From an uncultured Nitrospira sp. (GTDB lineage Bacteria; Nitrospirota; Nitrospiria; Nitrospirales; Nitrospiraceae), in the NCBI GenBank assembly GCA_902500775.1, contig CABVRZ010000004.1, positions 62,001 to 126,000 on the forward strand: a stretch of 64,000 nt of DNA. Direction: 5' to 3'. The position numbers and the translations under genes are program-made. The notes beneath the pieces were generated by a model, which searched no databases, had not been told where the DNA came from, and saw nothing but the letters and a program-made list of their open reading frames with translations. Below are positions 4,564 through 47,119 of the stretch, in pieces (position 1 is the first letter of the stretch; the number at the start of each line of letters is the position of its first letter).

Positions 4564-4627
4564 CAGGACTGTATGGTGCAGGGCGAAAGTCGAGGAAGGC
4601 TTCCGAGAGTTGTGACGTGTCGTTGTT

Positions 4628-4840
4628 CTACGATTTTGAGTCTTGATACTCTTCGTGCCACGCCATCTGGATCGTTTCTAAAATCTTTTCATTCGACTTC
4701 TTGGGGTCGTCTTTAAAATCTGGCAGTGCCACGATCCAAGTGTGCATATCCGTGAAGCGTACGGTCAATGGATCCGTCCCAGGATGTTCTTCAACCAGCC
4801 GGATGGCGATGTCTTCGGTGTCTTGCCATTTTAAGTCCAT
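4628..4840 (-). CDS. iscX: Fe-S assembly adaptor IscX
   Basis: Small acidic protein (70 residues from the chosen start) that binds IscS and iron and modulates cluster assembly. The family signature is present: DPLTVRFTDMH, then LPDFKDDP and SNEKILETIQMAW. The ATG at 4840 has AAGGAG seven bases upstream. A start at 4876 would add 12 residues without a ribosome-binding site. It is the last gene of the isc operon, 105 bp after hscA. Confidence 0.93.
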   Translation of the reverse strand: MDLKWQDTEDIAIRLVEEHPGTDPLTVRFTDMHTWIVALPDFKDDPKKSNEKILETIQMAWHEEYQDSKS

Positions 4841-4945
4841 CGAGAACTCCTTGGTATCTCGTCGTTCATCCCTCAACCATGCTCGGGACAGTGAGTGCGA
4901 ACAAACTGTGAAATATGAAACGAAATACGTTTCACGAGCGACGCG

Positions 4946-6766
4946 TTACGTCACTTCCGTGACTTTCTTTCCTTGCAAACTTTTCTTGAGCGAATCGTCC
5001 AGCATCACCACGTTCAGGTGCTTGGCAGCTTGTTCGAGTTCGGCCATCCGTGCACGGATGGCTCGGGGGTCCGTGCTGTCCTTTACTGTTGCCAGTTGAG
5101 ACAGTGCGTTTCGAATACCCTGAGCCTCATCCACGGCGATGAGGTGCCCCGCTTCCACCAGTGATTTCTCGGTCGTCTTGAGTAAGGTTTCGGCATCTAA
5201 TCGAGCCTCAATCAACTTCCGAGCATTGACATCGTCAGCGGCAAACTTAAACGAGTCCTCGATCATCCGCTCCACTTCTACGTCCGAGAGCCCATACGAG
5301 GGTTTGACTTCGATCGACTGACTCTGGCCCGTTCGCATGTCTGTTGCCGTGACATTCAGGATGCCGTTGGCATCGATCAGGAAAGTTACCTCGATGCGCG
5401 GAACACCAGCCGGGAGGGGGGGGACTTTCAGTCGGAATCGCGCCAAACTTCGATTGTCTTTAACGAGTTCTCGCTCGCCTTGTAGGATGTGGATGTCCAC
5501 ACCTGTTTGGCCGTCGACATAGGTGGTAAACATTTCCTTGGCGCTGGCCGGAATCGTCGTATTTCGGCGGATCAAACTGCTCATGACACCGCCCATCGTT
5601 TCGATGCCGAGAGACAGCGGCGTGACATCCAAGAGCAACATGTGTGTCGTCCCACCGCTTAGAATATCAGCCTGTACGGCAGCGCCAAGCGCCACGACTT
5701 CGTCTGGATTCAAGTGACAATGCGGCGCCTTTCCAAAGAGCGCCTCGACGCGTTGGCGAACCAACGGCATGCGCGTGGAACCACCCACCAAGACCACCTC
5801 GTCGATGTCTTTCGGGGTAAGTCCGGCGTCTTTGAGCGCCATGCGGCAGGGGGCCAAGGTCCGTTCAATGACTGGGAGCGCCAGGGATTCGAGTTGCTCG
5901 CGCGTCAGTTCCCTGGTGAAGTGTCCCTTGCCATCCGGTAGTTCGATGGTGATCGCGACTTTGAGATCATCAGAAAGGCGAATTTTGGCTCGCTCTGCTT
6001 CCAAACGGACGGCCTGCATATGATCGGGGTATTCGCTCAGGTTGATCCGATGCTGTTGTTGGACTTGTCCGATAAACAGATCGACAAGCAGCCGGTCGAG
6101 ATCGTCCCCTCCCAGATGAGTATCGCCATTCGTCGCCAGTACCTCAAAGATTCCGTCTTTAAGCTTCAAGATTGATATGTCGAATGTCCCGCCTCCGAAG
6201 TCGTAGACAGCAATCGTCCCTTGTGTCTTTTCCTGAAGTCCGTAAGCCAGGGAGGCAGCTGTCGGTTCGTTGATGATTCGTAGGACTTCCAGCCCAGCAA
6301 TGAGTCCGGCATCTTTGGTCGCCTGCCGTTGACTGTCGTTGAAATACGCGGGAACCGTGATGACGGCTTGGCTGATACTTTCACCCAGGTAGGCCTCCAC
6401 ACGTCGCTTCAGCTCTTTGAGGACCATGGCGGAGACTTGCGGTGGGGAATAACTCTTTTCGCCGAGCCGGATCCGGATGACGCCGCCAGTTTCAGTGAGC
6501 TGGTAGGGGAAATAGGCCAATTCGTCTTGGACATCGACCAACCCCTTGCCCATGAATCGTTTGACGGAATAGACCGTACGCTCTGGGCTGCGGGTCAAGT
6601 GTTCCTTAGCCGAATCGCCGACAATTAACCCATTGTCCGTCAGGGCCACAACTGATGGCACCATCGTTCGACCATGACGGTCGGGGACGACATAGGGTTG
6701 ACCGTCCTTCATGTAGGCGATCAGAGAATTCGTTGTGCCGAGGTCGATGCCGACAATTCTTGTCAT
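4946..6766 (-). CDS. hscA: Hsp70-type Fe-S chaperone HscA
   Basis: Specialised DnaK paralogue of 606 residues that works with HscB to release the nascent cluster from IscU. The start motif IVGIDLGTTNSL follows the ATG at 6766. Other nucleotide-binding-domain signatures include AVYDFGGGTFDISIL and VLVGGSTRMPLV. The substrate-binding domain follows, with TPLSLGIETMGG at its start. An upstream in-frame start at 6859 lies inside hscB and lacks homology, so it was rejected. The gap to hscB is 25 bp. It is called HscA rather than DnaK from its place between hscB and iscX and from its short C-terminal tail. Confidence 0.95.
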   Translation of the reverse strand: MTRIVGIDLGTTNSLIAYMKDGQPYVVPDRHGRTMVPSVVALTDNGLIVGDSAKEHLTRSPERTVYSVKRFMGKGLVDVQDELAYFPYQLTETGGVIRIRLGEKSYSPPQVSAMVLKELKRRVEAYLGESISQAVITVPAYFNDSQRQATKDAGLIAGLEVLRIINEPTAASLAYGLQEKTQGTIAVYDFGGGTFDISILKLKDGIFEVLATNGDTHLGGDDLDRLLVDLFIGQVQQQHRINLSEYPDHMQAVRLEAERAKIRLSDDLKVAITIELPDGKGHFTRELTREQLESLALPVIERTLAPCRMALKDAGLTPKDIDEVVLVGGSTRMPLVRQRVEALFGKAPHCHLNPDEVVALGAAVQADILSGGTTHMLLLDVTPLSLGIETMGGVMSSLIRRNTTIPASAKEMFTTYVDGQTGVDIHILQGERELVKDNRSLARFRLKVPPLPAGVPRIEVTFLIDANGILNVTATDMRTGQSQSIEVKPSYGLSDVEVERMIEDSFKFAADDVNARKLIEARLDAETLLKTTEKSLVEAGHLIAVDEAQGIRNALSQLATVKDSTDPRAIRARMAELEQAAKHLNVVMLDDSLKKSLQGKKVTEVT

Positions 6767-6791: not shown

Positions 6792-7523
6792 TCAGGCGAT
6801 AGTTGCTGCCAAATCGTTGACGATGCTGGTGACGTACGTTCGATTGGAAAGGAGATCACGCATCTGTTTCAAGAGCCGGTCCCGTTCTGCTCGCGCCTGG
6901 CTTGTGGCTTCTCCACGGTCTTGTAACTGGTCCCACTCTGTAAACAGTCGCTGCAGTTGAGCCTCCATTTCCTGCTTGCGTTGATCTAGCGCCCGTTGTT
7001 CGGTCTCAAGGGCCACGCGAAGCTCACGACCCTTCTGCGAATCTCGGTCCGATGACCGGTATGCCTCAAGCGTATCTTGGAGTTCCAAGATTTCCTCAAA
7101 CAGGTCGGCTGGAGGAGACGTGCGAATATTTTTCACGGAACCGGCTTCGAGACACAACAGGTACTCCGCTCGTTGAATGGGGTCACGGAGTGTGCGATAG
7201 GCCGTATTCAGAACTGCAGCATTGCCGAGGCTGATCGTTTGTTCTGCCGAGCTTTTCGTCTGATAGAAATCAGGGTGGAACGTCCGGCTCAATTCGTAGA
7301 ACTTGGCCTCAAGTTTCTTTTGGTCGAGTGTGAGACGCCGGGGAAACCCAAGGCAGGTGAAATAATCGGTCTCTTTTGAAACCGGCTGGACCTTGACGCA
7401 CCGTTCGCAGAAGTATTCCCCCGTGACAGCAGACTGGCAGTGCCAGCACATGCTTCGGGCCATCTGCAGCCCACGTGTTCGAGGCGATTCCGGTGTGTGT
7501 TGATCCATAGGAGAACCCGGCAC
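6792..7523 (-). CDS. hscB: Fe-S co-chaperone HscB with N-terminal four-cysteine motif
   Basis: J-domain co-chaperone that delivers IscU to HscA. The J-domain HPD motif is at residues 83-85 (TFHPDFY), and the C-terminal half is the helical IscU-binding domain. Before the J-domain there is a CxxC-x9-CxxC motif (C26, C29, C39, C42), predicted to bind zinc. E. coli HscB lacks this; human mitochondrial HSCB has a comparable N-terminal tetracysteine. The start is uncertain: GTG at 7523, ATG at 7508 or ATG at 7463. All three keep the cysteines. It lies between iscA and hscA in the operon. Confidence 0.93.
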   Translation of the reverse strand: MPGSPMDQHTPESPRTRGLQMARSMCWHCQSAVTGEYFCERCVKVQPVSKETDYFTCLGFPRRLTLDQKKLEAKFYELSRTFHPDFYQTKSSAEQTISLGNAAVLNTAYRTLRDPIQRAEYLLCLEAGSVKNIRTSPPADLFEEILELQDTLEAYRSSDRDSQKGRELRVALETEQRALDQRKQEMEAQLQRLFTEWDQLQDRGEATSQARAERDRLLKQMRDLLSNRTYVTSIVNDLAATIA

Positions 7524-7562
7524 GTGCGTGCCGCACCAATCAGTATCAAAACTCGTTCACAA

Positions 7563-7919
7563 TCAGGCCGAGAATGATTCTCCGCAGCCGCAGGTCTTAT
7601 TGGCATTCGGGTTGAGAAACTTGAAGTTTCCCCCCATGAGATCCTTCTGATAGTCCAGTTGAGTTCCTTGGAGATAGATGGCGCTCTTGGCATCGATGAT
7701 CACTTTGACGCCATTGATCTCATAGACTTGATCGTACTGTCCGATCTTCTCGTCGAAATTGATTGTGTAGCTCAGGCCCGAACAGCCACCGCCTTTCACA
7801 CCAAGACGAAGGCCGCCTTCCTCGATCCCTTGGACGTTAATCAATCGTTTGACCTCTTTCACGGCCGCGTCGGTGAGCGTGATGACCGGAGCCTGTGTCT
7901 CGACATTCGTTGTGTCCAT
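7563..7919 (-). CDS. iscA: A-type Fe-S carrier IscA
   Basis: A-type carrier of 118 residues that accepts clusters or iron and passes them to apo-proteins. The three ligand cysteines are C46 (GGGCSGLSY) and C110/C112 in the terminal CGCGESF. The N-terminal segment VITLTDAAVKEVK is typical of the family. It lies 28 bp after iscU. ErpA is a possible alternative name, but the operon position favours IscA. Confidence 0.93.
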   Translation of the reverse strand: MDTTNVETQAPVITLTDAAVKEVKRLINVQGIEEGGLRLGVKGGGCSGLSYTINFDEKIGQYDQVYEINGVKVIIDAKSAIYLQGTQLDYQKDLMGGNFKFLNPNANKTCGCGESFSA

Positions 7920-7947
7920 GGTGACACTCCCTTCGTCGGTGTCTTGG

Positions 7948-8346
7948 TTACTTGGTGCTGGGCGTCTGTTCTTCAGTTTTCTTCTGATAATCGGCTAATG
8001 CGGCTTTGATCGCATCTTCCGCCAGGACTGAACAGTGAATCTTGACCGGAGGAAGATTCAATTCCTGCACGATGTCCGTGTTCTTGATCTGTTGTGCTTC
8101 CTCGATCGTCTTACCCTTGAGCCATTCAGTGGCTAGGCTGGAGCTGGCGATCGCTGATCCGCAGCCGAACGTCTTGAACTTGGCATCCACGATCGTATCG
8201 TTCTGTACCTTGATTTGGAGCTTCATCACGTCGCCGCACTCTGGGGCGCCCACCATACCGGTGCCGACCCCGTCTTCGTCCTTTTTAAAGCTCCCCATGT
8301 TTCGGGGGTTGTTGAAATGATCGACGACTTTATTGCTGTATGCCAT
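7948..8346 (-). CDS. iscU: Fe-S scaffold IscU
   Basis: Scaffold of 132 residues on which IscS, ferredoxin and HscBA build and release a [2Fe-2S] cluster. The three ligand cysteines are C37 (PECGDVM), C62 (FGCGSAIASSS) and C105 (KIHCS), with D39 stabilising the cluster. The chaperone-recognition loop LPPVK occupies 98-102. It lies 34 bp after iscS. Confidence 0.97.
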   Translation of the reverse strand: MAYSNKVVDHFNNPRNMGSFKKDEDGVGTGMVGAPECGDVMKLQIKVQNDTIVDAKFKTFGCGSAIASSSLATEWLKGKTIEEAQQIKNTDIVQELNLPPVKIHCSVLAEDAIKAALADYQKKTEEQTPSTK

Positions 8347-8380
8347 GGTATCCTCCGAAATGAGCGAGTCTAGTTTTAGG

Positions 8381-9598
8381 TTAGTGTGCAGCCCACTGAA
8401 CGGATTTCAGATCGACGCCTTCTTTGGCCATCTCATAGAGCGGGGACATTTCCCGCAACTTGGTGACGATCTCGATAACCTTCTTAATCGTATAGTCAAT
8501 CTCGTCATCGCTGTTGAACCGGCCCAAGCCGAAGCGAATCGACGAGTGAGCGAGTTCAGTCCCCACACCGAGCGCACGCAAGACATACGAGGGCTCCAGC
8601 GTGGCCGAGGTACAGGCTGACCCAGATGAGAGGGCAATGTCTTTCATGCCCATGAGCAACGACTCACCTTCAACATACGCGAAAGAAATGTTGAGGTTGC
8701 CGGGCAGCCGGTTCGTCGGATGGCCGTTGAGATAGCTCTCCTCCAGGGCTGCCATAATCTCGGTCTGCAGCCGGTCGCGCATTTTGGTCAGTCGAGCCGT
8801 TTCTGTCGTCATCTCCTGCTCGCAGAGCTCACAGGCCTTGCCAAACCCAACGATCAGCGGGACCGGCAAGGTGCCGGACCTCATACCACGTTCATGTCCG
8901 CCGCCATCCATCTGTGGGGCGATCCGCACGCGCGGGTTTCGTTTCCTGACGTAGAGGGCACCGATCCCCTTTGGCCCGTACATTTTATGGGCCGAGAAGG
9001 ACATGAGGTCAATCCCCATGGCCTGGACATCGACCGGAATTTTCCCGACGCCCTGGGTGGCATCGCAATGGAACAAGATGCCTTTGGCTTTGGCAATCTT
9101 GCCGATCTCGGCGATGGGATTAATCGTGCCAATTTCGTTATTCGCCAGCATGACCGAGATCAGAATCGTCTTATCGGTGATGGCGTTTTGCACATCTTGC
9201 GGATTCACCATGCCGTATTTATCGACCGGCAAGTAGGTCACGGTCGCCAGCCCTTTGGCTTCCAGAGACTTGGCGGTATCGAGCACGGCCCGGTGTTCTG
9301 TGGACGACGTGATGATGTGGGTGCCTTTTTCCTTATACATCTCCAGGACGCCCTTCAACGCGAGGTTGTCTGATTCCGTGGCACCGCTGGTAAAGACGAT
9401 TTCCTTTGAATCAGCCTTGATCAGCTTCGCGATCCGTTTACGAGCCTCTTCTACTGCTTCTTCCGCTGCCCAGCCAAAGGCATGGTTACGGCTGGCCGCA
9501 TTGCCAAACTTTTCGACGAAGTAGGGCAGCATCGCCTCGAGCACTCGAGGGTCCATGGGAGTGGTGGAATGGTTATCGAGGAAAATGGGAAGCTTCAT
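8381..9598 (-). CDS. iscS: Cysteine desulfurase IscS
   Basis: PLP-dependent enzyme of 405 residues that takes sulfur from L-cysteine as a persulfide and donates it to IscU and other acceptors. The PLP lysine lies in [12 protein letters not shown] and the mobile-loop catalytic cysteine in [13 protein letters not shown]. The N-terminus [13 protein letters not shown] is standard for group I NifS/IscS. The start overlaps the iscR stop by four bases (ATGA), which points to translational coupling. Confidence 0.97.
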
Positions 9599-11405: not shown

Positions 11406-11534
11406 CCCCATCTCCTCCGGCACCCTCATAGCAGAACCCGAGGAGAGATGGAAGCGTTTCAGCGGTGTACAAGGATTTTCTCAGCGTGGTATAGATGGGC
11501 GGCTTCGTATGCGTGAAGAAGGGATAATGCGGTC

Positions 11535-12950
11535 ATGAGTGAGGTTCGTGTCCGGTTCGCTCCTAGTCCAACGGGGTTTCTGCATATCGGTGGAGTGCGC
11601 ACGGCCCTGTTTAACTGGCTGTTTGCGCGCCAGCAGCAAGGGGTCTTCGTCCTTCGCATCGAGGATACGGATCAGAGTCGGTCAACCGATGAGTCGATCC
11701 AGGCCATCATCAAAGGCATGAAATGGGTCGGGCTTGATTGGGACGAGGGCCCGTTCCGCCAAACCGAACGGATGGACCTCTATCGCGGCCATGCCATGAC
11801 GCTACTTGAAGCGGGGCATGCCTATTGGTGTGTGTGTAAGGCAGAGGAATTAGAGGCTCGGCGGAAAGAAGCCGAAGCGAAAGGGCTCTCGCCACGATAT
11901 GACGGCCGTTGCCGCAATCTCGGCATCGTGAGCCCACCAGGGAATGCCGCACTTCGCTTCAAGGCGCCGCAAGAGGGCCAAATCGTCGTCGATGACCTCA
12001 TCAAGGGTAAGATTACCTTTGACAACAGCGCTGCCGACGACCTCATTATTCTGCGGTCCAACGGCTATCCGACCTATAACTTTTCAGTCGTGGTCGATGA
12101 TGCACTGATGCGCATTACGCACGTGGTGCGGGGTGATGACCACCTGACCAACACACCGCGACAGATTCCGATTTTCGAAGCCTTAGGGTTTGCCGTTCCG
12201 CGCTTTGGTCATCTCCCAATGATCCTCGGCTCGGACAAGACACGGCTCTCAAAACGCCATGGGGCGACGTCGATCATGGCCTACAAAGACATGGGCTATC
12301 TGCCCGAGGCCATGGTCAATTATCTGGTTCGGCTTGGCTGGTCGCATGGAGATCAGGAGCTCTTTACCCGGCAGGAGCTTGTCCAAAAATTCTCGTGGGA
12401 TCACGTCCAGACATCGGCTGCCGTGTTCAATCCGGACAAGCTCTTGTGGATGAACGCCGAATACATCAAGGCCAGCCCTCCTCAACAGGTGACTCACGCG
12501 CTCGTACCGTTGTTAGACCAGGCAGGGTTGAAGAAGGACGTCGAGGCGGTCTCGGACGAATGGCTTGCACAGCTGGTGGTCTTGGTGAAGGAGCGGGCGA
12601 AGACGCTAGTCGACATGGTGGAATGGGTGAAACCCTATTTCGGACAAGTTGCTCCCTTCGAGGAAGAGGCGGCCAAGAAATTTCTCATACCGGCGATGGC
12701 TCCGTTGCTACAGAAGCTGGTCACACGCTTTGAAGCATTCCCCAGCTTTTCCAAGCCAATCTGGGAAGAGAGCTTCAAGAGGTTAGTCGAAGAGGAAGGT
12801 ATAAAAATGGGCGTATTGGCCCAGCCGGTTCGTGTTGCCTTGACAGGGCGAACGGCAAGCCCGGGCCTCTTTGAGGTGATGGAAGTACTGGGACGGGATC
12901 GAACCTTGATGCGTCTGCGAACCGGGATTGAGCGTGCCTCGAAAGGATGA
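11535..12950 (+). CDS. gltX: Glutamyl-tRNA synthetase
   Basis: Class I synthetase of 471 residues that charges tRNA-Glu. The HIGH motif appears as PTGFLHIGG near residue 14 and the KMSKS motif as DKTRLSKRHG. The C-terminal anticodon-binding helical domain is complete. GlnRS is also encoded in this window (14699-16405), so this GluRS need not charge tRNA-Gln. Two tRNA-Gln genes lie immediately downstream. Confidence 0.97.
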   Translation: MSEVRVRFAPSPTGFLHIGGVRTALFNWLFARQQQGVFVLRIEDTDQSRSTDESIQAIIKGMKWVGLDWDEGPFRQTERMDLYRGHAMTLLEAGHAYWCVCKAEELEARRKEAEAKGLSPRYDGRCRNLGIVSPPGNAALRFKAPQEGQIVVDDLIKGKITFDNSAADDLIILRSNGYPTYNFSVVVDDALMRITHVVRGDDHLTNTPRQIPIFEALGFAVPRFGHLPMILGSDKTRLSKRHGATSIMAYKDMGYLPEAMVNYLVRLGWSHGDQELFTRQELVQKFSWDHVQTSAAVFNPDKLLWMNAEYIKASPPQQVTHALVPLLDQAGLKKDVEAVSDEWLAQLVVLVKERAKTLVDMVEWVKPYFGQVAPFEEEAAKKFLIPAMAPLLQKLVTRFEAFPSFSKPIWEESFKRLVEEEGIKMGVLAQPVRVALTGRTASPGLFEVMEVLGRDRTLMRLRTGIERASKG

Positions 12951-12980
12951 AGGTTTTCTCTTCCCAAACCCGCGTCGATC

Positions 12981-38011: not shown

Positions 38012-38911
38012 CTAGCTCAGTAATTCACGTCGGGCGGTGCGGACAAGCGCAAGGACGGCCGGGTGCTTCAGCCGCCGTTCGACGGTGATTGCGTAGAAGT
38101 GCTGGATGAGCTCGTCCAGCCGTCCCACCACCTGTACCTGATACTGGCGACAGATCTCTTTCTCGATCACGGTGGCGCCGGGGAAGATCCCATGGCCGTC
38201 CTGACCGAAGGCTTTGAGGGTCGCACTGTCGTCGAATTCACCGACTATAATGGGGTGCAAGCCATGGTTCACCATCCATTGGTCCATCAACCGGCGGAGC
38301 ACGGCTGTGGAGGTGGGGAGGAGAAGAGGTGCATCGCGCAGTGAGTCGGGGAAGTCTCGGCGGTAGCGAGCTGCCAGTGTTGCCGTGGCAAACAACGTCA
38401 CCCCTGATTCACCCAAGGGGTGATTATACGTCTGCTCCTTCGCGCCCGGTGGAGCGGGGGTGTCAGCGATCACCAAGTCTGACCGATGGGCGGCCAGATC
38501 GGCCAGGAGCTGGCGCAGTTTATCTTCCTGGCAGATCAAGCGCGTCGGGCGATACGTCTTGAGGGCCGACTTGAGGAGTTGGGTCGCCAATGGTTTGGGG
38601 ACTGCGTCAGCAATACCCACGACTAAACGCGTCGGCTGTCCATCGGTTTTTCCTTTGACGGTGTTGAGGAGTTCTTGCCCGGTCGCGAAGATGTCGTCCG
38701 CATACTTAAACACGAGCTGGCCCATTTCCGTCAGCACGAGACGCCGGCCCGTTCGAATAAATAACTTTTCTCCAAAGGTATTTTCCAAGAGGTGAATCTG
38801 GCCACTTAGGGTGGGCTGCGCCAAGCGAAGTTCTTCAGAGGCCTTGGTCACGGTTCCATGTTTCGCTACGGACCAGAAATATAGGAGATGATGGTAGTTC
38901 AACCACTCCAT
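38012..38911 (-). CDS. nhaR: LysR-family regulator, NhaR-like
   Basis: 299 residues. The N-terminal winged helix MEWLNYHHLLYFWSVAKHG strongly resembles NhaR, the sodium-responsive activator of nhaA. The rest is a periplasmic-binding-protein-like effector domain. No Na+/H+ antiporter gene is nearby. Instead it is divergent from the triple-TolC export operon, with a LysR-type inverted repeat between them, so that operon is the likely target. Confidence 0.88.
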   Translation of the reverse strand: MEWLNYHHLLYFWSVAKHGTVTKASEELRLAQPTLSGQIHLLENTFGEKLFIRTGRRLVLTEMGQLVFKYADDIFATGQELLNTVKGKTDGQPTRLVVGIADAVPKPLATQLLKSALKTYRPTRLICQEDKLRQLLADLAAHRSDLVIADTPAPPGAKEQTYNHPLGESGVTLFATATLAARYRRDFPDSLRDAPLLLPTSTAVLRRLMDQWMVNHGLHPIIVGEFDDSATLKAFGQDGHGIFPGATVIEKEICRQYQVQVVGRLDELIQHFYAITVERRLKHPAVLALVRTARRELLS

Positions 38912-38962
38912 ACGGCCTCCTCGGTCACAACAAGGGGGCCCTACTATACATCGGAATTCACG

Positions 38963-38986
38963 ATAGATCCAATCTGTTTTATCTAT
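38963..38986. promoter_or_regulatory. Candidate LysR operator
   Basis: ATAGAT and ATCTAT form a perfect inverted repeat with a 12-base spacer. It lies in an AT-rich block between the divergent NhaR-like gene and the first TolC-like gene. The spacing suits a LysR-type regulator. Confidence 0.5.
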
Positions 38987-39064
38987 TTTGAAAAATGAAG
39001 GGGAGATTGCTAGTGTGGGCGCCGTCCGCTACCTGACACGACGTGACTCGAAGGGAGTTCCTCG

Positions 39065-40615
39065 ATGGTCGCTCTGTGGTTGGCTTTACTGCTTATGTTC
39101 CCGGCCGTAACGATGGCGGAACCGATAACCGATGATAGCGCGTTAAAGTCCGTTTCTTCTCGAACCGCCCCCCTTACCATTGGAGAAGTGCTGGCTCGCA
39201 TCGAATTGACACATCCCTTGCTTCAGGCGATGGGTGCCGAGCGAACGAAGGCTCGGGCAAAAATCCTCAAGGCGCTCGGGGCCTGGGAACCACAGGTCAA
39301 GAACTATACACAGGTCGAACGGTATACTACGTGGAATCTCACGACGGCGTTCGATATTCCGAGTCAACATACGACGGGCTATGCCGACAGTACCATCCAG
39401 GTCGGACATCCGTGGGGCTTCACGGTTGAAGGCGGGCTCCGCAGCGGCTTTGGGGATAAGGGCAACGCCAGGATTGCTTATCCTCCAGATCTACTGGGCA
39501 CGTATCCTCAGCAGCATCTCTACTACGGTGGGGTGTTCCATCTGCTCCGAGGCTTCATGGTCAACGATGAGAATGCCCAGTTTCAACAGGCCGAACTCGC
39601 TGGGCCGCAGGCGGAGATCAAAGTTGCGCAGAAACGGCAGGATCTCTATCTCGCCGGTGCCGTCCAGTACTGGGATTGGCAGGTTGCTGTCAAGCAAGCT
39701 GAGGTGGTGAAGCGCGCCTTGGGCGTCGCCGAAGATCGGTTGGTTCAGATTGAAGGGTTGGCCAAGGGTGGGCGGGTCGCGCCACTCGATGTTGTTGAGG
39801 CGAACCAAGAGGTTCAAAAGCGGAGACAGGCAGCGATCGCTGCCCAGCGGAAGACTGAGTATGAGCAGTACAAGCTGTCCCTCTTTCTCTGGGAGAACGG
39901 TGAGCCGGTAACGCCGCGTCCGGAATGGGCGCCGGAATTCCAGGGTGAAACGCCACTTCCGACCAACGAAGAAGTCGCGGCCTATAAAGTAGAGGCGAAG
40001 GAAATACGGCCAGAAGTGCGGGACCTCTACATCGAAGCCAAGATCAACAATATCGACATCAAGCTCGCGAAGAACAAACTCCTCCCAAAATTAGATCTTG
40101 AGGGCGGACCAACCAAGGGCGCTGCGGACTGGGTCGTGGGGCTTGGGTATCGAGTTGGCGTGCACTTGGAAGTACCGGTGTTCCAGCGGGAAGGGCGGGG
40201 GAAGGTCATGGCTGCGGAAGTGGCTCAGCAACAACTGGCATTGAAGCAGCTCTACACCGAGCAGCAAGTCAGCTTCGACGTGGATAACTGGCTCTCGGCC
40301 CAAGTGCGGTCCAGGGACCGGGTGACGGCGGCGACGGAAGCCCTTCGTTTGGCGAAGACGCTGGAAGAAGGCGAACGCACGAGGTTTAACATGGGGGCTA
40401 CCACCGTGTTATTCGTGAACCTCCGTGAGCGCCATGTGGTGGAGTCGGCGTACCAGTTGTATCGGGCACAAGCAGACTATGCCGTCGCGCGTGGAGGAAT
40501 GCTGTGGGCTAGGGGCGTGCTAGCAAAGCCTTGGCCGACGGAGTCCCTGGCGCAATATGGCAATCCGCTGGCGGCGGTGGGCATGAACGGCTACAAACAA
40601 CCGGGCCGCGATTAA
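39065..40615 (+). CDS. TolC-family outer-membrane channel, copy 1
   Basis: 516 residues. A signal peptide (MVALWLALLLMFPAVTMAEP) precedes two long helical-hairpin repeats with a beta segment in each, the TolC layout. The residues LGAWEPQVKNYTQ and YWDWQVAVKQAE are shared with copies 2 and 3. The extracellular/first barrel segment (about 80-155) differs strongly among the copies. It heads a tandem of three paralogues read toward an ABC exporter. Confidence 0.9.
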   Translation: MVALWLALLLMFPAVTMAEPITDDSALKSVSSRTAPLTIGEVLARIELTHPLLQAMGAERTKARAKILKALGAWEPQVKNYTQVERYTTWNLTTAFDIPSQHTTGYADSTIQVGHPWGFTVEGGLRSGFGDKGNARIAYPPDLLGTYPQQHLYYGGVFHLLRGFMVNDENAQFQQAELAGPQAEIKVAQKRQDLYLAGAVQYWDWQVAVKQAEVVKRALGVAEDRLVQIEGLAKGGRVAPLDVVEANQEVQKRRQAAIAAQRKTEYEQYKLSLFLWENGEPVTPRPEWAPEFQGETPLPTNEEVAAYKVEAKEIRPEVRDLYIEAKINNIDIKLAKNKLLPKLDLEGGPTKGAADWVVGLGYRVGVHLEVPVFQREGRGKVMAAEVAQQQLALKQLYTEQQVSFDVDNWLSAQVRSRDRVTAATEALRLAKTLEEGERTRFNMGATTVLFVNLRERHVVESAYQLYRAQADYAVARGGMLWARGVLAKPWPTESLAQYGNPLAAVGMNGYKQPGRD

Positions 40616-40638
40616 CCCGGCACAAGGAGCATCCTTCG

Positions 40639-42186
40639 ATGGTCGCTCTCTTACTCGCGATTCTGATCTTACTGCCAGTCGTGACACTGGCGGAACCGGT
40701 GCACGATTCCAGCGCGTTGAAGGCGCAGTCTGTCCGCACTGAACCTTTGAGCATCAGCGAAGTGCTGGCTCGTATCGAGTTGACGCATCCGCTGCTTCGG
40801 GCGACCGGGGTCGAACGGATGCAAGCCCGGGCAAAAATTCTCAAGGCGCTCGGAGCCTGGGAGCCGAAGTTCAAGAACCGGACCGAGGTCGACCGGTATC
40901 AGACTTGGAATTTCTTGGCCTTCGTGAATGAGACGACGGGGGGCTTTAACGACAGCACGCTTGAGATGGGGCATCCTTGGGGTTTCCGGATCGAAGGCGG
41001 CATCCGCAACGGGTTTGGAGATCGCACGAACCAAGGCGCCCATGCATACCTTCCGAATGATGGACTGCTCTTCTGGCATAACCAGCAAATGATCGTCGGT
41101 GGGGAGGCTCATCTGCTGCGGGGCTTCATGATGAACGAGGAGTACGCCGACTTCCAGAAGGCCGAACTCGCGGGGCCGCAAGCGGAGATCCATGTCGCAC
41201 AGAAACGACAGGACCTCTACCTCGACGGAGCTGTGCAGTACTGGGATTGGCAGGTAGCGGTCAAGCAAGCCGAGATTGTGAAGCGTGCGTTGGCTGTGGC
41301 TGAAGAGCGGTTCACGCAGGTCGAGGGGCAAGCCAAACGTGGGCTGGCTTCGCCGCTTGATGTCGTTGAGACCAACAAAGAGGTGCAGGTGCGGCGAGAG
41401 GCGGCCATCGCTGCCCAGCGGAAGGTGGAGTATGAGCAGTACAAACTGTCCCTCTTTCTCTGGGAGAACGGTGAGCCGGTAACGCCGCGTCCGGAATGGG
41501 CGCCGGAATTCCAGGGCGAAACGCCACTCCCGACCAAAGATGAGATCGCGGCTTATAAAGTAGAGGCCAAAGAAGTGCGGCCAGAAGTGCGGGAGCTCTA
41601 CATCGACGCCAAGATCAACAATATCGACATCAAGCTCGCCAAGAACTACTTGCTCCCGAAGTTGGATTTTAAAGGGGGGCAAATGGACGCGGGCGCAGAC
41701 TGGAATGTGGGCGTGGGATATCGGATGGAATCATGGTTTGCGATGCCGGTGTTCCAGCGAGCAGGGCGAGGAAAGGTCCTGTACGCAGAAGCGGACCAAC
41801 AGCAATTGGCTTTGAAACAGCTGTATACCGAGCAACAAGTCAGCATTGATGTCGATAACTGGCTCTCGGCTCAAGTGCGAGCTCGCGACCGCGTGAAGGT
41901 GGCGACGGAAGCACTGCGATTGGCCAAGACGCTGGAAGAGGGCGAACGGACTCGATTCAATATGGGCGCGAGCACCGTGCTCTTTGTGAACATCCGGGAG
42001 CGCAACGTGGTGGAACAGGCGTACCAGCTGTATCGGGCGCAAGCCGACTACGCAGTATCGCGTGGAGGTATGTTGTACGCGAGGGGCGTGTTGGCGAAGC
42101 CGTGGCCTGACAGTGAGTTGGCGAAGTACGGCAACCCGCTGGCCGCGGCTGGTATGAACGGCTTCAAACGACCTGGGCGCGATTAA
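40639..42186 (+). CDS. TolC-family outer-membrane channel, copy 2
   Basis: 515 residues from the ATG at 40639, which follows AAGGAGCATCCTTCG. The signal peptide is MVALLLAILILLPVVTLAEP. The protein is closely similar to copy 1 over the periplasmic helices. A 71-bp stretch (41446-41516) is identical in DNA to 39875-39945 of copy 1. The gap from copy 1 is 23 bp. Translation upstream to 40531 would overlap copy 1 and was rejected. Confidence 0.9.
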   Translation: MVALLLAILILLPVVTLAEPVHDSSALKAQSVRTEPLSISEVLARIELTHPLLRATGVERMQARAKILKALGAWEPKFKNRTEVDRYQTWNFLAFVNETTGGFNDSTLEMGHPWGFRIEGGIRNGFGDRTNQGAHAYLPNDGLLFWHNQQMIVGGEAHLLRGFMMNEEYADFQKAELAGPQAEIHVAQKRQDLYLDGAVQYWDWQVAVKQAEIVKRALAVAEERFTQVEGQAKRGLASPLDVVETNKEVQVRREAAIAAQRKVEYEQYKLSLFLWENGEPVTPRPEWAPEFQGETPLPTKDEIAAYKVEAKEVRPEVRELYIDAKINNIDIKLAKNYLLPKLDFKGGQMDAGADWNVGVGYRMESWFAMPVFQRAGRGKVLYAEADQQQLALKQLYTEQQVSIDVDNWLSAQVRARDRVKVATEALRLAKTLEEGERTRFNMGASTVLFVNIRERNVVEQAYQLYRAQADYAVSRGGMLYARGVLAKPWPDSELAKYGNPLAAAGMNGFKRPGRD

Positions 42187-42211
42187 TTCGGCAACAAAGG
42201 AGCATCCTTCT

Positions 42212-43807
42212 TTGATCCTTCTCTTGCTGTTCTCGCTGATGATGGTGCCGGCGGCTGCACTGGCGGAGCCGGTGATCGACTCAAGTGTCGTGCAGGCTCA
42301 GTCGGCCCGTACCGCTCCCTTGACCATTGAAGAGGTGCTGGCCAGGATTGAGTTGACCCATCCGCTCCTCCGGGCAACTGGACTGGAGCGGGCGCAGGCT
42401 CGGGCGAAAGTTCTGAAAGCGTTGGGCGCGTGGGAGCCAAAGGTTCGGAACGAGATCGAGTACGATCGCTATCAAACGTACAATCTGACGAACGTGAGCG
42501 GTGCGCCGAATCACTTAAGTTCTGGCTATGTGGATACCTTTCTCAAAATTGGGCACCCTTGGGGGTGGGAGATCTTCGGCGGTATCCGCAACGTCTTTGG
42601 TGATCATGCAACGCTCAGTGGAGTCAGCACCCTTACGTTCGAACGTAACGTCCAGAGTCCCGGAGTGGGGGTCCCTCAAGACTTTCAACTGTTCTATCCC
42701 CAGCAAATGGGCATCGTTGGGGGAAAGCTTAATCTCTTGCGGGGATTCATGGTCAACGAAGAGTTTGCCCAATTTCAACAGGCGGAACTCGCCGGGCCAC
42801 AAGCAGAGATCAAAGTGGCTCAGAAACGGCAAGAGCTCTATCTCGCAGGGGCCGTTCAATACTGGGATTGGCAAGTCGCCGCCAAGCAAGCCGATGTGGT
42901 GAAGCGAGCACTCGCCGTTGCGGAAGAGCGTTATCGCATGGTCGAGGGTCGAGCCAAAGCCGGGGCGGTCGCTCCGATTGACGTAGTCGAAGCCCGAGAA
43001 GAAGTTCAGCGGCGTCGAGAAGCTGCCATAGCCGCGCAACGGAAGGTGGAGTACGAACAATATAAACTCGCGCTCTTCCTCTGGGAAAACGGTGAACCGG
43101 TGACGCCACGACCTGAGTGGGCCCCAGAATTTCAGGGAGAAACCCCCTTGCCAAGTGACGAGGATGTGGCGGCCTTCAAGGTGGAAGCGACGGAGGATCG
43201 GCCGGAGGTTCGCGATCTGTATGTTGAAGCCAAACTGAACAATATTGAAATAAAACTGGCGAAGAATAGTCTGCTTCCTAAGTTCACGGTTGAGGGTGGG
43301 CCTTCGATCGGCTCGATCTATTGGGTCGGAGGGGTTGGTTACCGAGTGGCAACTTTATTCAGTATGCCACTGTTCAATAGAGGCGCCAGAGGGAAAGTCC
43401 TTCACGCAGAAGCTGAGCAGGAACGGCTGGCCTATAAACAAGCCTACACGGAGCGACAGGTGCAGATCGATGTGGACAATTGGCTGTCAGCCCAAGTGCG
43501 GGCCCGAGACCGAGTGAAGGCAGCGACGGAAGCCCTGCGGTTGGCCAAGACGCTGGAAGAGGGCGAACGCGCCAGGTTTAACATGGGAGCAACAAGTGTC
43601 CTCTTCGTCAACCTACGAGAGCGTGCAGTGGTCGAAGCGGCGTATGAGCTCTACCGTGCCCAAGCCGATTATGTCGTGTCGCGGGGAGGGATGCTCTGGG
43701 CAAGGGGAGCCCTATCGAAGCCAGTGGCGGAAAATGTGCTGGCAAAGTATGGAGATTCTCTGCATTCTGCGGGATCATCGGGACGTAAGCAGGTAGGACG
43801 CGACTAG
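42212..43807 (+). CDS. TolC-family outer-membrane channel, copy 3
   Basis: 531 residues with a TTG start (42212) after AAAGGAGCATCC, the same ribosome-binding sequence as copy 2. Signal peptide MILLLLFSLMMVPAAALAEP. The first barrel segment is about 15 residues longer than in copies 1 and 2. The helical domains are conserved, but at DNA level this copy is more diverged. 141 bp separate it from the ABC gene. Confidence 0.9.
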   Translation: MILLLLFSLMMVPAAALAEPVIDSSVVQAQSARTAPLTIEEVLARIELTHPLLRATGLERAQARAKVLKALGAWEPKVRNEIEYDRYQTYNLTNVSGAPNHLSSGYVDTFLKIGHPWGWEIFGGIRNVFGDHATLSGVSTLTFERNVQSPGVGVPQDFQLFYPQQMGIVGGKLNLLRGFMVNEEFAQFQQAELAGPQAEIKVAQKRQELYLAGAVQYWDWQVAAKQADVVKRALAVAEERYRMVEGRAKAGAVAPIDVVEAREEVQRRREAAIAAQRKVEYEQYKLALFLWENGEPVTPRPEWAPEFQGETPLPSDEDVAAFKVEATEDRPEVRDLYVEAKLNNIEIKLAKNSLLPKFTVEGGPSIGSIYWVGGVGYRVATLFSMPLFNRGARGKVLHAEAEQERLAYKQAYTERQVQIDVDNWLSAQVRARDRVKAATEALRLAKTLEEGERARFNMGATSVLFVNLRERAVVEAAYELYRAQADYVVSRGGMLWARGALSKPVAENVLAKYGDSLHSAGSSGRKQVGRD

Positions 43808-43885
43808 GGAATTCCACCAGAGCTTAGTAGTAAGGAATAGTTCCTTTGGTGGGCTTGGATATTGATCTCAGAATCAACTAAGTTT

Positions 43886-43899
43886 CTTTGTATACAAAG
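43886..43899. promoter_or_regulatory. 14-bp palindrome upstream of the ABC gene
   Basis: CTTTGTATACAAAG is a perfect palindrome, flanked by CTAA and TTAG in inverted orientation. It lies 49 bases before the ABC start in the only sizeable gap of the export locus, so the ABC and adaptor genes may have their own regulated promoter. Confidence 0.5.
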
Positions 43900-43948
43900 T
43901 TAGTAAGGGGCCGATGATTCACATTCTGACATATTACTGGGGGTACTC

Positions 43949-45625
43949 ATGAACGAACCTCAGGGCGAAGGAAACCAAAACCTGTTCCAAGCATTGATGA
44001 GGCAGCTGTCGGTGGCCATGCGGGCAGAGAAAAAGATTATGAGCTTGCTCATTTCTTACGCCGTGGCTGTTGGATTTTTCTCTCTTATCATTCCATTGAC
44101 TGTGCAGGAATTGGTCAGTACCTTTTCCTACGCGGTTCAGCCGGTCATGATTTGGACCTTGACAGCGATCATGTTCTCGGTGCTGCTGTTCGTGGGACTA
44201 TTTAAGACCTTCCATTTTTACGCCGTGGACGTAGTCCAGCGGCGACTCTTTGCGCGGGTCGCCGTGGCGATGGTTGAACAGCTTCCACGCAATCGCTTCA
44301 AAGGGGCACGGCCTGAGCTAGCAAACTACTTCATCGAAACAGTCTTTATGCAGCGGGCGCTTTCGACGCTGCTCATCGATCTCTTGAACGTGGTAGTAGG
44401 TGGAACTGTCGGGATGATCATGTTGGTCGTCTATCACCCATATTTTCTGGTTTACAATCTGCTACTCATGACGGGGTTTGCAATCACGTTTTTTGTACTC
44501 TCCCGTGGTGCATTGAGGACGACCCTGGCGATGTCTCATGCCAAGTACGACGTCTTTAATTTTATCCAAGAAGTTTCAAGGAATGCGCTGCAATTGAAGG
44601 CGACCGACAGTAAGCCGTTTCTCATCCAGAAAGCCGACGAACTTGTTAGCCGATACGTCGAAGCTCGGAAGGCGCGCTTTACCGTGCTCGTGCGGCAGTA
44701 TGTCGGGTCCGTGGGAGGACAAGCGGTCGCACAGGCTGGTGCCATCGGCATCTCAGGCACGCTCTTGGCTGCCGGACAGTTGACACTTGGGCAGTTGGTC
44801 GCGGTCCAGGCGGTTGTCAGTGCGTTGGTCATCAGTTTTGACTCTTTGATCAAGAACATGGGCTTTGTGTACTATTTCTTTGCCTCCCTGAGCCATCTTG
44901 ATGAGGTGTTTGGGCAGGAACAGGATTATGTCTCCGCAGAGTCTGTCGTGGCCTTGCCGAAGCATTTGGGTCAAGGCGTTCGCGTGACCTGCAAAGGGGT
45001 CAGTCTCGTTCATGGTGGTCAGGCAGTGTTCGATGGCTTCAACCTTGATGTGGCACCTGGTGAGAAGCTGGGGATTTATGCCAAAACAACGGCTGCGAAG
45101 ACCTCACTGGCAAGAGTGCTTGGTGGTCTTGAAGTGCCAACTGGTGGAGTCGTGCAGTACAACGGAGTCGATCTTCGCTACATTGATGCTGGGGCGATCA
45201 ACCAGTGCCGCAGTGTCATGATTGACTCACAGTTGTCCTTGGTCAAAGGCACCATCGAAGAGAATATTGTGATGGGCCGGTCCTATGTCACCTATGACGA
45301 CTTGAACTGGGCACTTCGTTTTACAGAACTTGAAGAGGATATTGAAGGTCTTCCACGCGGGGTGAAGTCCGAGATCTCCTCGTTGGGTGAGTCTGTATCG
45401 CCGACGCATGTTGTGCAGATCCTTCTGGCTCGTGCCATTCTCGGACGCCCGCAAGTGCTCGTATTTGATGGGTTGATCCACTCGCTTGAGCCGTCATTGC
45501 GTGAACGGATTTTACGTCGGCTTTGCTCCAAGGACGAGGCCTGGTCGGTGATCTTTGTGTCGACCGATCCTAACCTCACGGATCATGCTGATCGTCGTAT
45601 TATGTTGCATCATACACATGCGTAA
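43949..45625 (+). CDS. ABC exporter (type I secretion) with degenerate ATPase domain
   Basis: 558 residues. The N-terminal half has the membrane helices of a type I secretion exporter (for example IMSLLISYAVAVGFFSLIIPL) without a peptidase domain. The C-terminal half has the ABC fold, but the motifs are altered. The P-loop is A378-K-T-T-A-A-K384-T-S386, without its glycines. The signature LSGGQ is replaced around S484-P-T-H487. The Walker B ends D507-G508, so the catalytic glutamate is missing. The switch histidine position is T539. The frame is intact and the fold retained, so it is not a simple pseudogene. It lies between triple TolC genes and an HlyD gene. Confidence 0.85.
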   Translation: MNEPQGEGNQNLFQALMRQLSVAMRAEKKIMSLLISYAVAVGFFSLIIPLTVQELVSTFSYAVQPVMIWTLTAIMFSVLLFVGLFKTFHFYAVDVVQRRLFARVAVAMVEQLPRNRFKGARPELANYFIETVFMQRALSTLLIDLLNVVVGGTVGMIMLVVYHPYFLVYNLLLMTGFAITFFVLSRGALRTTLAMSHAKYDVFNFIQEVSRNALQLKATDSKPFLIQKADELVSRYVEARKARFTVLVRQYVGSVGGQAVAQAGAIGISGTLLAAGQLTLGQLVAVQAVVSALVISFDSLIKNMGFVYYFFASLSHLDEVFGQEQDYVSAESVVALPKHLGQGVRVTCKGVSLVHGGQAVFDGFNLDVAPGEKLGIYAKTTAAKTSLARVLGGLEVPTGGVVQYNGVDLRYIDAGAINQCRSVMIDSQLSLVKGTIEENIVMGRSYVTYDDLNWALRFTELEEDIEGLPRGVKSEISSLGESVSPTHVVQILLARAILGRPQVLVFDGLIHSLEPSLRERILRRLCSKDEAWSVIFVSTDPNLTDHADRRIMLHHTHA

Positions 45626-45673
45626 GTTGTCGAAACGGCGAATTCATTCGGGTACTTTTATTATGGAGGCTCC

Positions 45674-47119
45674 ATGGCTAGCCTAGGTCGCGGTCATGAT
45701 AATAGCGGTGAGCGTGCTTTGGTTCAGCGAGGGGTCGGCTTGGAGGCGATCACGATTGAACAGGGCCCCGCATTGGCGAAGTTGCCTTGCTGGCAGGCTG
45801 TACAAATACCAAGAGGGATGTTCACGGCGTCTCGTGCCATTCTTACGATTCTCCTCTTGTTTCTAATTGTGCTTGAGTTTGTTCCTTGGACACAAACGAT
45901 CAGTGCCAAGGGAAAGGTTTCTGCGTACACTCCCTATGATCGGCCTCAGAATATTGAGTCTCGGATCACAGGACGGGTGAAAGCGTGGCATATTTATGAA
46001 GGTGTCAAGGTCAAGAAGGGTGAACTCGTTGGAGAGTTGGAAGACTACGATCCGACCTTCATGGCGCCGGAGATCCTTCCACTGTTCGAACAGCGGAAAG
46101 AGGCATTGGAAAAAACCCGTCAGGCGGCATTGGCCAGAGCAGACCAATTGAACAAACGGATCGGTGAAATGAAAAAATTGGTCCAGGCTGCAGTGCCTTC
46201 AGCCGAAGCTCGTGTGGTTGAGGCAGATAATAAGGTGCGTGAGGCTCAGCAGAAGGTTGAACAGTACAAGATCGATGTGCACACAGCTCAGCTCAATGTC
46301 GACCGCCATCGACAACTGGTCCGGGATGGGTTGGTGTCACAACGTGAACTTGAGTTGACGATTCAAACTGAAATCGGTACCAAGGCTGGTTTACAGGCGG
46401 CACAGGCCAGTCTTCTGGCGGCGGAGCAGGCCCGGTCATCGTTGAGCTTCGGTCGTGATCAGATCTCGGCGGATGTGAACCAGAGGTTGATGGACGCGGT
46501 TGCATCACGCGATTCTGCTGTAGCGGAAGCTGCCAAGGCTACGGAGTCGCTGGCTGATATCGCCTATCGCCAACAGGGAGTGCAACAACGAATTGAAGCC
46601 GCGAAACTCTACGCGCCTATGGATGGCACTGTCGTCAAGATGGCGAAGGTTGGTATGAATGAAACTGTGAAGCAGGGAGAGAATTTGGTCACTATTTCTC
46701 CTCTTGCTTCTGATCCCGCCATTGAAATGGTGGCTGAAGGGTTGGATTCTCCACTTCTGAAAGCTGGGCGTAAGGTGCGGATCCTCTTTTTCGGGGTTCC
46801 GGCTATTCCCTTGCCGGCATGGCCAGGCTTAATGGCTGGCACCCGTGGAGGCATCATCAAAGTGGTCGACCAGATCGATGATGGCAAGGGCAATTATCGA
46901 TTCTGGGTCGTCCCAGATCCCGATGATTCTCAGCCATGGCCTGATCAAGCCCAGGTGAGGCAAGGAACAAAGGTGTTGGGTTGGGTCATTATGAATCGGG
47001 TTCCGCTCTGGTACGAACTCTGGCGGCGGTTTAACTTCTTCCCGCCGGACTATATGGAACGTGAGCCGAGTCTGTTTGAAATGTTTGCGCCAAAGGTGGC
47101 AGCACCTGGCGCTAAGTAA
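45674..47119 (+). CDS. HlyD-family membrane fusion protein
   Basis: 481 residues. One membrane segment (about 55-75, AILTILLLFLIVLEFVPW) follows a 50-residue cytoplasmic part. The first half-lipoyl motif is in ITGRVKAWHIYEGVKVKKGEL, followed by a long coiled coil (about 130-310), the second half (APMDGTVVKMAKVGMNE) and a C-terminal beta domain. It should bridge the ABC exporter and the TolC-like channels. It follows the ABC gene by 48 bp. Confidence 0.92.
   Translation: MASLGRGHDNSGERALVQRGVGLEAITIEQGPALAKLPCWQAVQIPRGMFTASRAILTILLLFLIVLEFVPWTQTISAKGKVSAYTPYDRPQNIESRITGRVKAWHIYEGVKVKKGELVGELEDYDPTFMAPEILPLFEQRKEALEKTRQAALARADQLNKRIGEMKKLVQAAVPSAEARVVEADNKVREAQQKVEQYKIDVHTAQLNVDRHRQLVRDGLVSQRELELTIQTEIGTKAGLQAAQASLLAAEQARSSLSFGRDQISADVNQRLMDAVASRDSAVAEAAKATESLADIAYRQQGVQQRIEAAKLYAPMDGTVVKMAKVGMNETVKQGENLVTISPLASDPAIEMVAEGLDSPLLKAGRKVRILFFGVPAIPLPAWPGLMAGTRGGIIKVVDQIDDGKGNYRFWVVPDPDDSQPWPDQAQVRQGTKVLGWVIMNRVPLWYELWRRFNFFPPDYMEREPSLFEMFAPKVAAPGAK

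Follow-up and report, generated by a model that had tools for sequence, protein, structure and literature searches.

A degenerate ABC exporter and three TolC paralogues with matched variable loops at a conserved Nitrospira locus

A locus in a comammox Nitrospira genome encodes three tandem TolC-like channels (T1, T2, and T3), an ABC half-transporter, and an HlyD-type adaptor. The transporter that these channels serve is a conserved pseudo-ABC protein in which all of the catalytic motifs are degenerate, and this is a larger surprise than the channel triplet itself. It was overlooked in the initial annotation of this DNA, as was the fact that the variable loops of T1, T2, and T3 form matched sets across genomes. 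The reading that we favor, at a confidence that is evenly balanced, is that the locus specifies a trans-envelope conduit built on the type I/tripartite plan, with a pseudo-ABC that works without hydrolysis and three co-adapted TolC paralogues that would most likely assemble as a T1:T2:T3 hetero-trimer. Such a conduit probably works without the usual ATP fuel, and its exit pore may consist of three different parts. The defining property of ABC exporters is that ATP is hydrolyzed at the NBD dimer. An order-wide family in which the fold is selected and catalysis is lost, and which is still encoded with HlyD and TolC, makes roles of the NBD beyond hydrolysis directly testable. As judged from the papers searched, three co-adapted channels would be a first case of an outer-membrane factor made more complex by its paralogues, and the organisms that carry this locus are globally important nitrifiers.

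The window (the whole 64,000-nucleotide stretch that was analyzed) lies on contig C4 of a host genome of 4.53 Mb. The nearest relatives of this genome are Nitrospira and it contains amoA, which together indicate that the host is a comammox Nitrospira. The amoA gene is at positions 93 to 800 of contig C30 of the same genome (G000), near an OEP match (3963 to 5147) and two ABC matches (7231 to 8691 and 11527 to 12975, in open frames of about 730 amino acids). In the window, T1 (516 amino acids, positions 39065 to 40615), T2 (515 amino acids, 40639 to 42186), and T3 (531 amino acids, with a TTG start, 42212 to 43807) are followed on the plus strand by the ABC half-transporter (558 amino acids, 43949 to 45625) and the HlyD-type periplasmic adaptor (481 amino acids, 45674 to 47119). 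The OEP domain is above the Pfam cut-off in T1, T2, and T3 (86, 94, and 103 bits, respectively) and occurs as two stretches in each, corresponding to two repeats. Thus, open reading frames and Pfam matches agree with the earlier description of three tandem paralogues preceding a single ABC protein and adaptor. The adaptor matches Pfam HlyD_3 at 25.2 bits (cut-off, 22.2) and TIGR01843 at 60 bits, which is under the cut-off of 208.7. The ribosome-binding sequences had been described as near-identical for all three channels; this holds for T2 and T3, which both have AAGGAGCATCCTTC, and is weaker for T1 in the window genome, while T1 in relatives has the same GGAGCATCC sequence.

A LysR-family gene (38012 to 38911, minus strand) is divergent from T1 and is kept beside the triplet in relatives. 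Its product passes the NCBIfam NhaR equivalog model with 240.4 bits (cut-off, 219), in agreement with its annotation as NhaR-like. The conserved part of the LysR-T1 spacer (38950 to 38989) contains an ATCGG-N5-CCGAT inverted repeat, followed by near-invariant TTTTATCTATTTT. An alignment of this spacer shows that the repeat is conserved over the relatives and is imperfect in the window. The NhaR-like protein may control the channel operon, with this repeat as a candidate LysR site in a candidate promoter region. The gap between T3 and the ABC gene is about 115 to 143 bp in most genomes and contains a conserved stretch immediately upstream of the ABC start (GATTCACATTCTGACAT...TTACTGGGG in the window spacer at 43808 to 43948, plus strand, from the alignment over relatives), which raises the possibility that the channels and the ABC gene are separate transcripts. 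Within this spacer, positions 43826 to 43905 also contain CCACCA...TGGTGG, which resembles a hairpin, and CTTTGTATACAAAG, which is a perfect palindrome. The core of the palindrome, TTGTATACAA, recurs only in the closest relatives.

A complete triplet in identical order is present in 28 genomes, comprising the window genome and at least 27 other Nitrospira. Since the array is carried by 27 other genomes, it is neither a chance arrangement nor an assembly artefact. Where contigs are long enough, the recurrent order in Nitrospira genomes is agmatinase, RsuA, LysR (minus strand), T1, T2, T3, ABC, HlyD, and PurE, so that the survey of synteny called for by the initial annotation finds the order conserved among relatives. 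Orthology is as expected from position in the array in 28/28, 31/31, and 35/35 of the comparable cases, counts that leave out the expanded array of L050. In a tree of the channels, the T3 sequences form one clade, and those of T1 and of T2 are close to monophyletic. Together with the positional orthology, this indicates that the triplication is older than the triplet-bearing group. A single channel occurs in Nitrospira moscoviensis, in other Nitrospira, and in sister genera. It is part of an HlyD-TolC-ABC arrangement that is mostly located at the purE-rsuA site; these single-copy relatives do not have an unrelated channel gene, but a homologous one at the same locus. Some genomes have both the triplet and the single-channel system, and in L099 the two are side by side. 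The one-channel state is probably ancestral. The exceptions to the conserved array are L092, which has two channels only (a T1/T2 chimera and T3), L050, which has a larger channel array, and L049, which has channel fragments. All three are draft metagenome assemblies, and their odd arrays may be assembly artefacts. A contig labelled uncultured Nitrosospira (L072; CAADGK010000056.1) has the Nitrospira triplet locus, with an ABC identity of 93%, and is probably mislabelled or misbinned.

The channels are 74% (T1 and T2), 68% (T1 and T3), and 69% (T2 and T3) identical at the protein level. Their differences peak at alignment columns 76 to 175, with a lower second peak near columns 351 to 400. The hypervariable first barrel/loop segments comprise amino acids 79 to 161 of T1 (39299 to 39547), 79 to 160 of T2 (40873 to 41118), and 79 to 177 of T3 (42446 to 42742), the longest of the three, and the second segment of T1 comprises amino acids 341 to 374 (40085 to 40186; all plus strand). 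A model of T1 (pLDDT 81) has the TolC fold of long helices and strands, and TolC structures are its top PDB matches. The strands are at residues 77 to 89, 100 to 114, 120 to 130, and 150 to 159 in the first half and at residues 342 to 349 and 362 to 369 in the second half, with the variable stretches inside, giving six strands per protomer at modest or low confidence (pLDDT about 55 to 82 in this part). An invariant Gly118 in a PWG turn between strands 2 and 3 fits a periplasmic turn. In the T1 model, the variable stretch is therefore in beta strands and turns and not in the periplasmic helices, as would be expected from its initial assignment to the barrel and extracellular region. T1, T2, and T3 have almost the same second periplasmic tip, RFNMGA.[ST]VLFVN. 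The cores of T1 and T2 (39548 to 40615 and 41119 to 42186) show gene conversion within genomes, with synonymous differences that are lower within than between genomes, and the stretch around QYKLSLFLWENGEPVTPRPEWAPEFQGETPLPT in these cores is nearly identical at the DNA level.

We compared the loop segments across the genomes with complete triplets (28, including the window, with 28 positional comparisons used in the loop analyses). The mean amino acid distance is about 0.36 to 0.39 for the first loop segments, compared with 0.14 in the channel cores and in the ABC protein. Loop divergence does not track genome relatedness: L090 has an ABC dS of 3.7 and a loop dS of 0.38 to 0.73, and L040 has an ABC dS of 0.95 and a loop dN of 0.38 to 0.47. 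In contrast, the loops of the different channels track each other. For distant pairs, the mean correlation between loops of different genes is 0.66 (minimum, 0.57), while the correlation is 0.25 between a loop and its own core, 0.10 between loop and ABC, and 0.63 between core and ABC. When the set is dereplicated to 16 genomes for Mantel tests, r between first loops of different genes is 0.57 to 0.75 (0/1000 permutations), r between a loop and its own core is 0.12 to 0.16 and not significant, and r between loop and ABC is about zero. The T2-loop tree (dL 67) is also a far better fit to the T1 loops than the tree of their own core (dL 160) or the ABC tree (dL 422). The AU test rejects identical loop trees among the three genes, which are similar, not identical. 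All three loops are shared in 29/275 distant pairs, compared with about 1.8 expected from single-gene rates, although the pairs are not independent. The variable loops of T1, T2, and T3 are thus matched sets across genomes.

This pattern is expected under epistasis between the loops of the three channels, and the simplest physical cause of it would be contact within a mixed trimer. The initial annotation had suggested interchangeable or hetero-trimeric exit pores. The matched loop sets lend the hetero-trimer indirect support and weaken the idea that the channels are interchangeable. Judged from sequence covariation, co-assembly as a hetero-trimer is favored over freely interchangeable homotrimers, which is not proof of it, and we regard a mixed channel trimer as having an even chance of being correct. 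If L092, with two channels, and L050, with its larger array, are not assembly errors, they fit poorly with an obligate 1:1:1 trimer.

The explanation that best withstands these data as an alternative, and which we consider possible at well below even confidence, is that three separate homotrimers serve the pseudo-ABC and HlyD, and that phages or bacteriocins have driven the diversity of their loops, which strains have exchanged as one block, so that they look matched. No other part of the channels is nearly as variable as the loops, which likely face phage or the environment, and phages and colicins are known to use TolC as a receptor (PMC8277102). The L090 values given above are signs of horizontal exchange in the TolC region, and synonymous distances contain some signal that is common to the entire TolC block. 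However, transfer of a block would also bring the cores closer, and in loop-matched distant pairs the intervening cores show little or no reduction in synonymous distance (0.362 versus 0.384 for the middle of T2, 0.362 versus 0.363 for the middle of T3, and 0.423 versus 0.408 for the C-terminal part of T2). The synonymous distances therefore fit poorly with simple block transfer as the only reason that the loops are matched. Block exchange combined with short conversion tracts could mimic matched loop sets. Pairwise loop dN is also below dS, so these values give no support to positive selection.

The ABC protein consists of an exporter-type membrane domain and a degenerate NBD, and it matches Pfam ABC_tran weakly (34 bits; cut-off, 25). 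In the Walker A motif, GIYAKTTAAKTS (45071 to 45106), the three glycines are replaced by A, T, and A, with Lys and Thr retained. VSPTH replaces the LSGGQ signature (45395 to 45409), the catalytic Glu that follows the retained Asp507 of Walker B is Gly508 (45467 to 45472), and the H-loop His is Thr539 (45563 to 45565; all plus strand). In the same columns of the same alignment, a canonical control has GATGAGKTS, FSAGQ, ILDE, and AHR. In a set of 90 distinct Nitrospirales sequences, Gly takes the place of the catalytic Glu in 90/90, the H-loop His is found in 0/90 (46 have T, 42 have N, and 2 have I), and LSGGQ is found in 0/90, and the degenerate motifs are themselves conserved. The family retains the Lys of Walker A and the Asp of Walker B in most cases, so ATP binding is possible. 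In the 11 Bacteroidota relatives, the Glu position is occupied by Asp, and both the H-loop His and the signature are absent. More distant members of the family have a better Walker A (e.g., GTSTGKTT in L114), which suggests that Walker A erosion is probably later than the loss of Glu, His, and signature.

Purifying selection is stronger on the degenerate NBD than on the membrane domain, with a median dN/dS of 0.031 versus 0.055. A dN/dS of 0.03 and conserved degenerate motifs rule out that the ABC gene is a decaying pseudogene. In an AlphaFold model (pLDDT 76), the exporter fold is kept, and the best PDB match is HlyB (8dck; TMq 0.84). The family is found in 77/295 Nitrospirota genomes, all within two families of the window's order, and in Nitrospira and sister genera HlyD and TolC are encoded with it at the purE-rsuA locus. 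Given the loss of every catalytic motif family-wide, the initial description of a type I system with an ABC pump is not supported. A plain type I secretion ABC is ruled out by this loss and by scores far below the T1SS family cut-offs (103 of 693 bits for LssB, 83 of 726 for HlyB, and 86 of 510 for PrtD). No gene for a secreted substrate is linked to the locus; the neighbors at all loci are housekeeping genes (agmatinase, RsuA, and PurE), and a substrate may be encoded elsewhere. Based on the motifs, the pseudo-ABC very probably does not hydrolyze ATP.

We consider it unlikely that the ABC protein instead runs on ATP as the degenerate half of an asymmetric exporter, with a canonical half-transporter encoded elsewhere, in the manner of TAP or TmrAB. 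It is common for half-transporters to have one degenerate site (PMC7756269), the Lys of Walker A and the Asp of Walker B are retained here for the most part, and there are other ABC proteins in the genome. However, one ATP site is composed of the Walker motifs of one partner and the signature of the other (PMC7756269), and the signature of the pseudo-ABC has been lost as well, so that a canonical partner would not restore a complete site. Known degenerate halves, by comparison, still provide a working signature to the site of the partner. No canonical ABC gene adjoins the locus among the loci read. Sister genera do have two tandem ABC genes, but both copies have dead motifs, which rules out an active heterodimer with the tandem ABC.

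Still less probable, to the point of being quite improbable, is that the pseudo-ABC acts as a sensor or as a signalling receptor and is not part of a transporter, with the channels working with other pumps of the cell. The spacer separates the channels from the ABC gene, and three sister genera have paralogous pseudo-ABC genes followed by genes for a PAS histidine kinase and an NtrC-type regulator. These loci, from three genera of the family (L128, 2812 to 7360; L129, 3973 to 8513; L130, 6178 to 10707), lack HlyD and TolC and encode a PAS-HisKA-HATPase kinase and an NtrC-like sigma-54 response regulator; they are possible pseudo-ABC sensor systems. Another pseudo-ABC, a lone one, directly adjoins a Na+/H+ exchanger (PF00999) and a universal stress protein (L107, 5182 to 8518), and the exchanger was not found in the related L108. 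Against a sensor at the triplet locus, the association of HlyD and TolC with the ABC gene has persisted through at least two gene order rearrangements, and no kinase gene was seen there.

In the trans-envelope conduit that we propose, the HlyD adaptor would dock the channel trimer, via the near-identical second periplasmic tips, onto a dimer of the pseudo-ABC. The retained NBD would be a structural, nucleotide-sensing, or signalling domain and not a motor, and transport would be gated and driven otherwise, by a substrate gradient, the membrane potential, or another partner. Both the docking and the energization without ATP are inferences. That all five proteins form one machine seems likely to us. 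The more specific combination, in which a non-hydrolyzing pseudo-enzyme ABC exporter is energized or gated by other means and exits through an obligate hetero-trimeric TolC pore with matched loop sets, is put forward as a tentative model.

In the open-access literature, we found no direct precedent for a dead ABC exporter with HlyD/TolC or for HlyD/TolC in Nitrospira, and no TolC-family hetero-trimer. Loci associated with SecA_DEAD have type I-like parts without an ABC homologue (PMC4452313). They resemble the present locus in having these parts without a working ABC and differ from it in that there is no ABC homologue there at all; since no SecA_DEAD gene was seen at the locus, it is not a system of that kind. 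The HlyB-HlyD-TolC system has the same three-part layout, with HlyD and TolC/OEP families and with HlyB as the structure closest to the window ABC model (TM 0.84). In contrast to that system, the window NBD lacks catalytic motifs and its scores are far below the T1SS cut-offs, the ABC protein, at 558 amino acids, has no room for a C39-like domain, there are three channels rather than one, and there is no linked substrate. TAP, TmrAB, and TM287/288 are structural matches to the window ABC and have a similarly degenerate Walker A, catalytic Glu, and H-loop. These exporters keep one complete composite site, whereas here the signature is lost and the tandem partners in relatives are dead. The ABC-HlyD-TolC operons of Bacteroidota (L076 to L086) encode an ABC protein that is about 25% identical and also lacks the catalytic Glu, the signature, and the H-loop His, but its Walker A is intact or nearly so, it has Asp rather than Gly at the Glu position, and the operons have a single channel and another gene order. 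Outer-membrane factors of the E. coli TolC/OprM type share the alpha-barrel and beta strands and the two-repeat layout of the channels described here and are their top PDB matches. Compared with these factors, the first barrel segment of T1 is about twice as long, with four strands predicted in it, so that the T1 model has, at low confidence, six strands per protomer rather than the four of E. coli TolC, and the channels at this locus are three tandem paralogues with matched loop sets.
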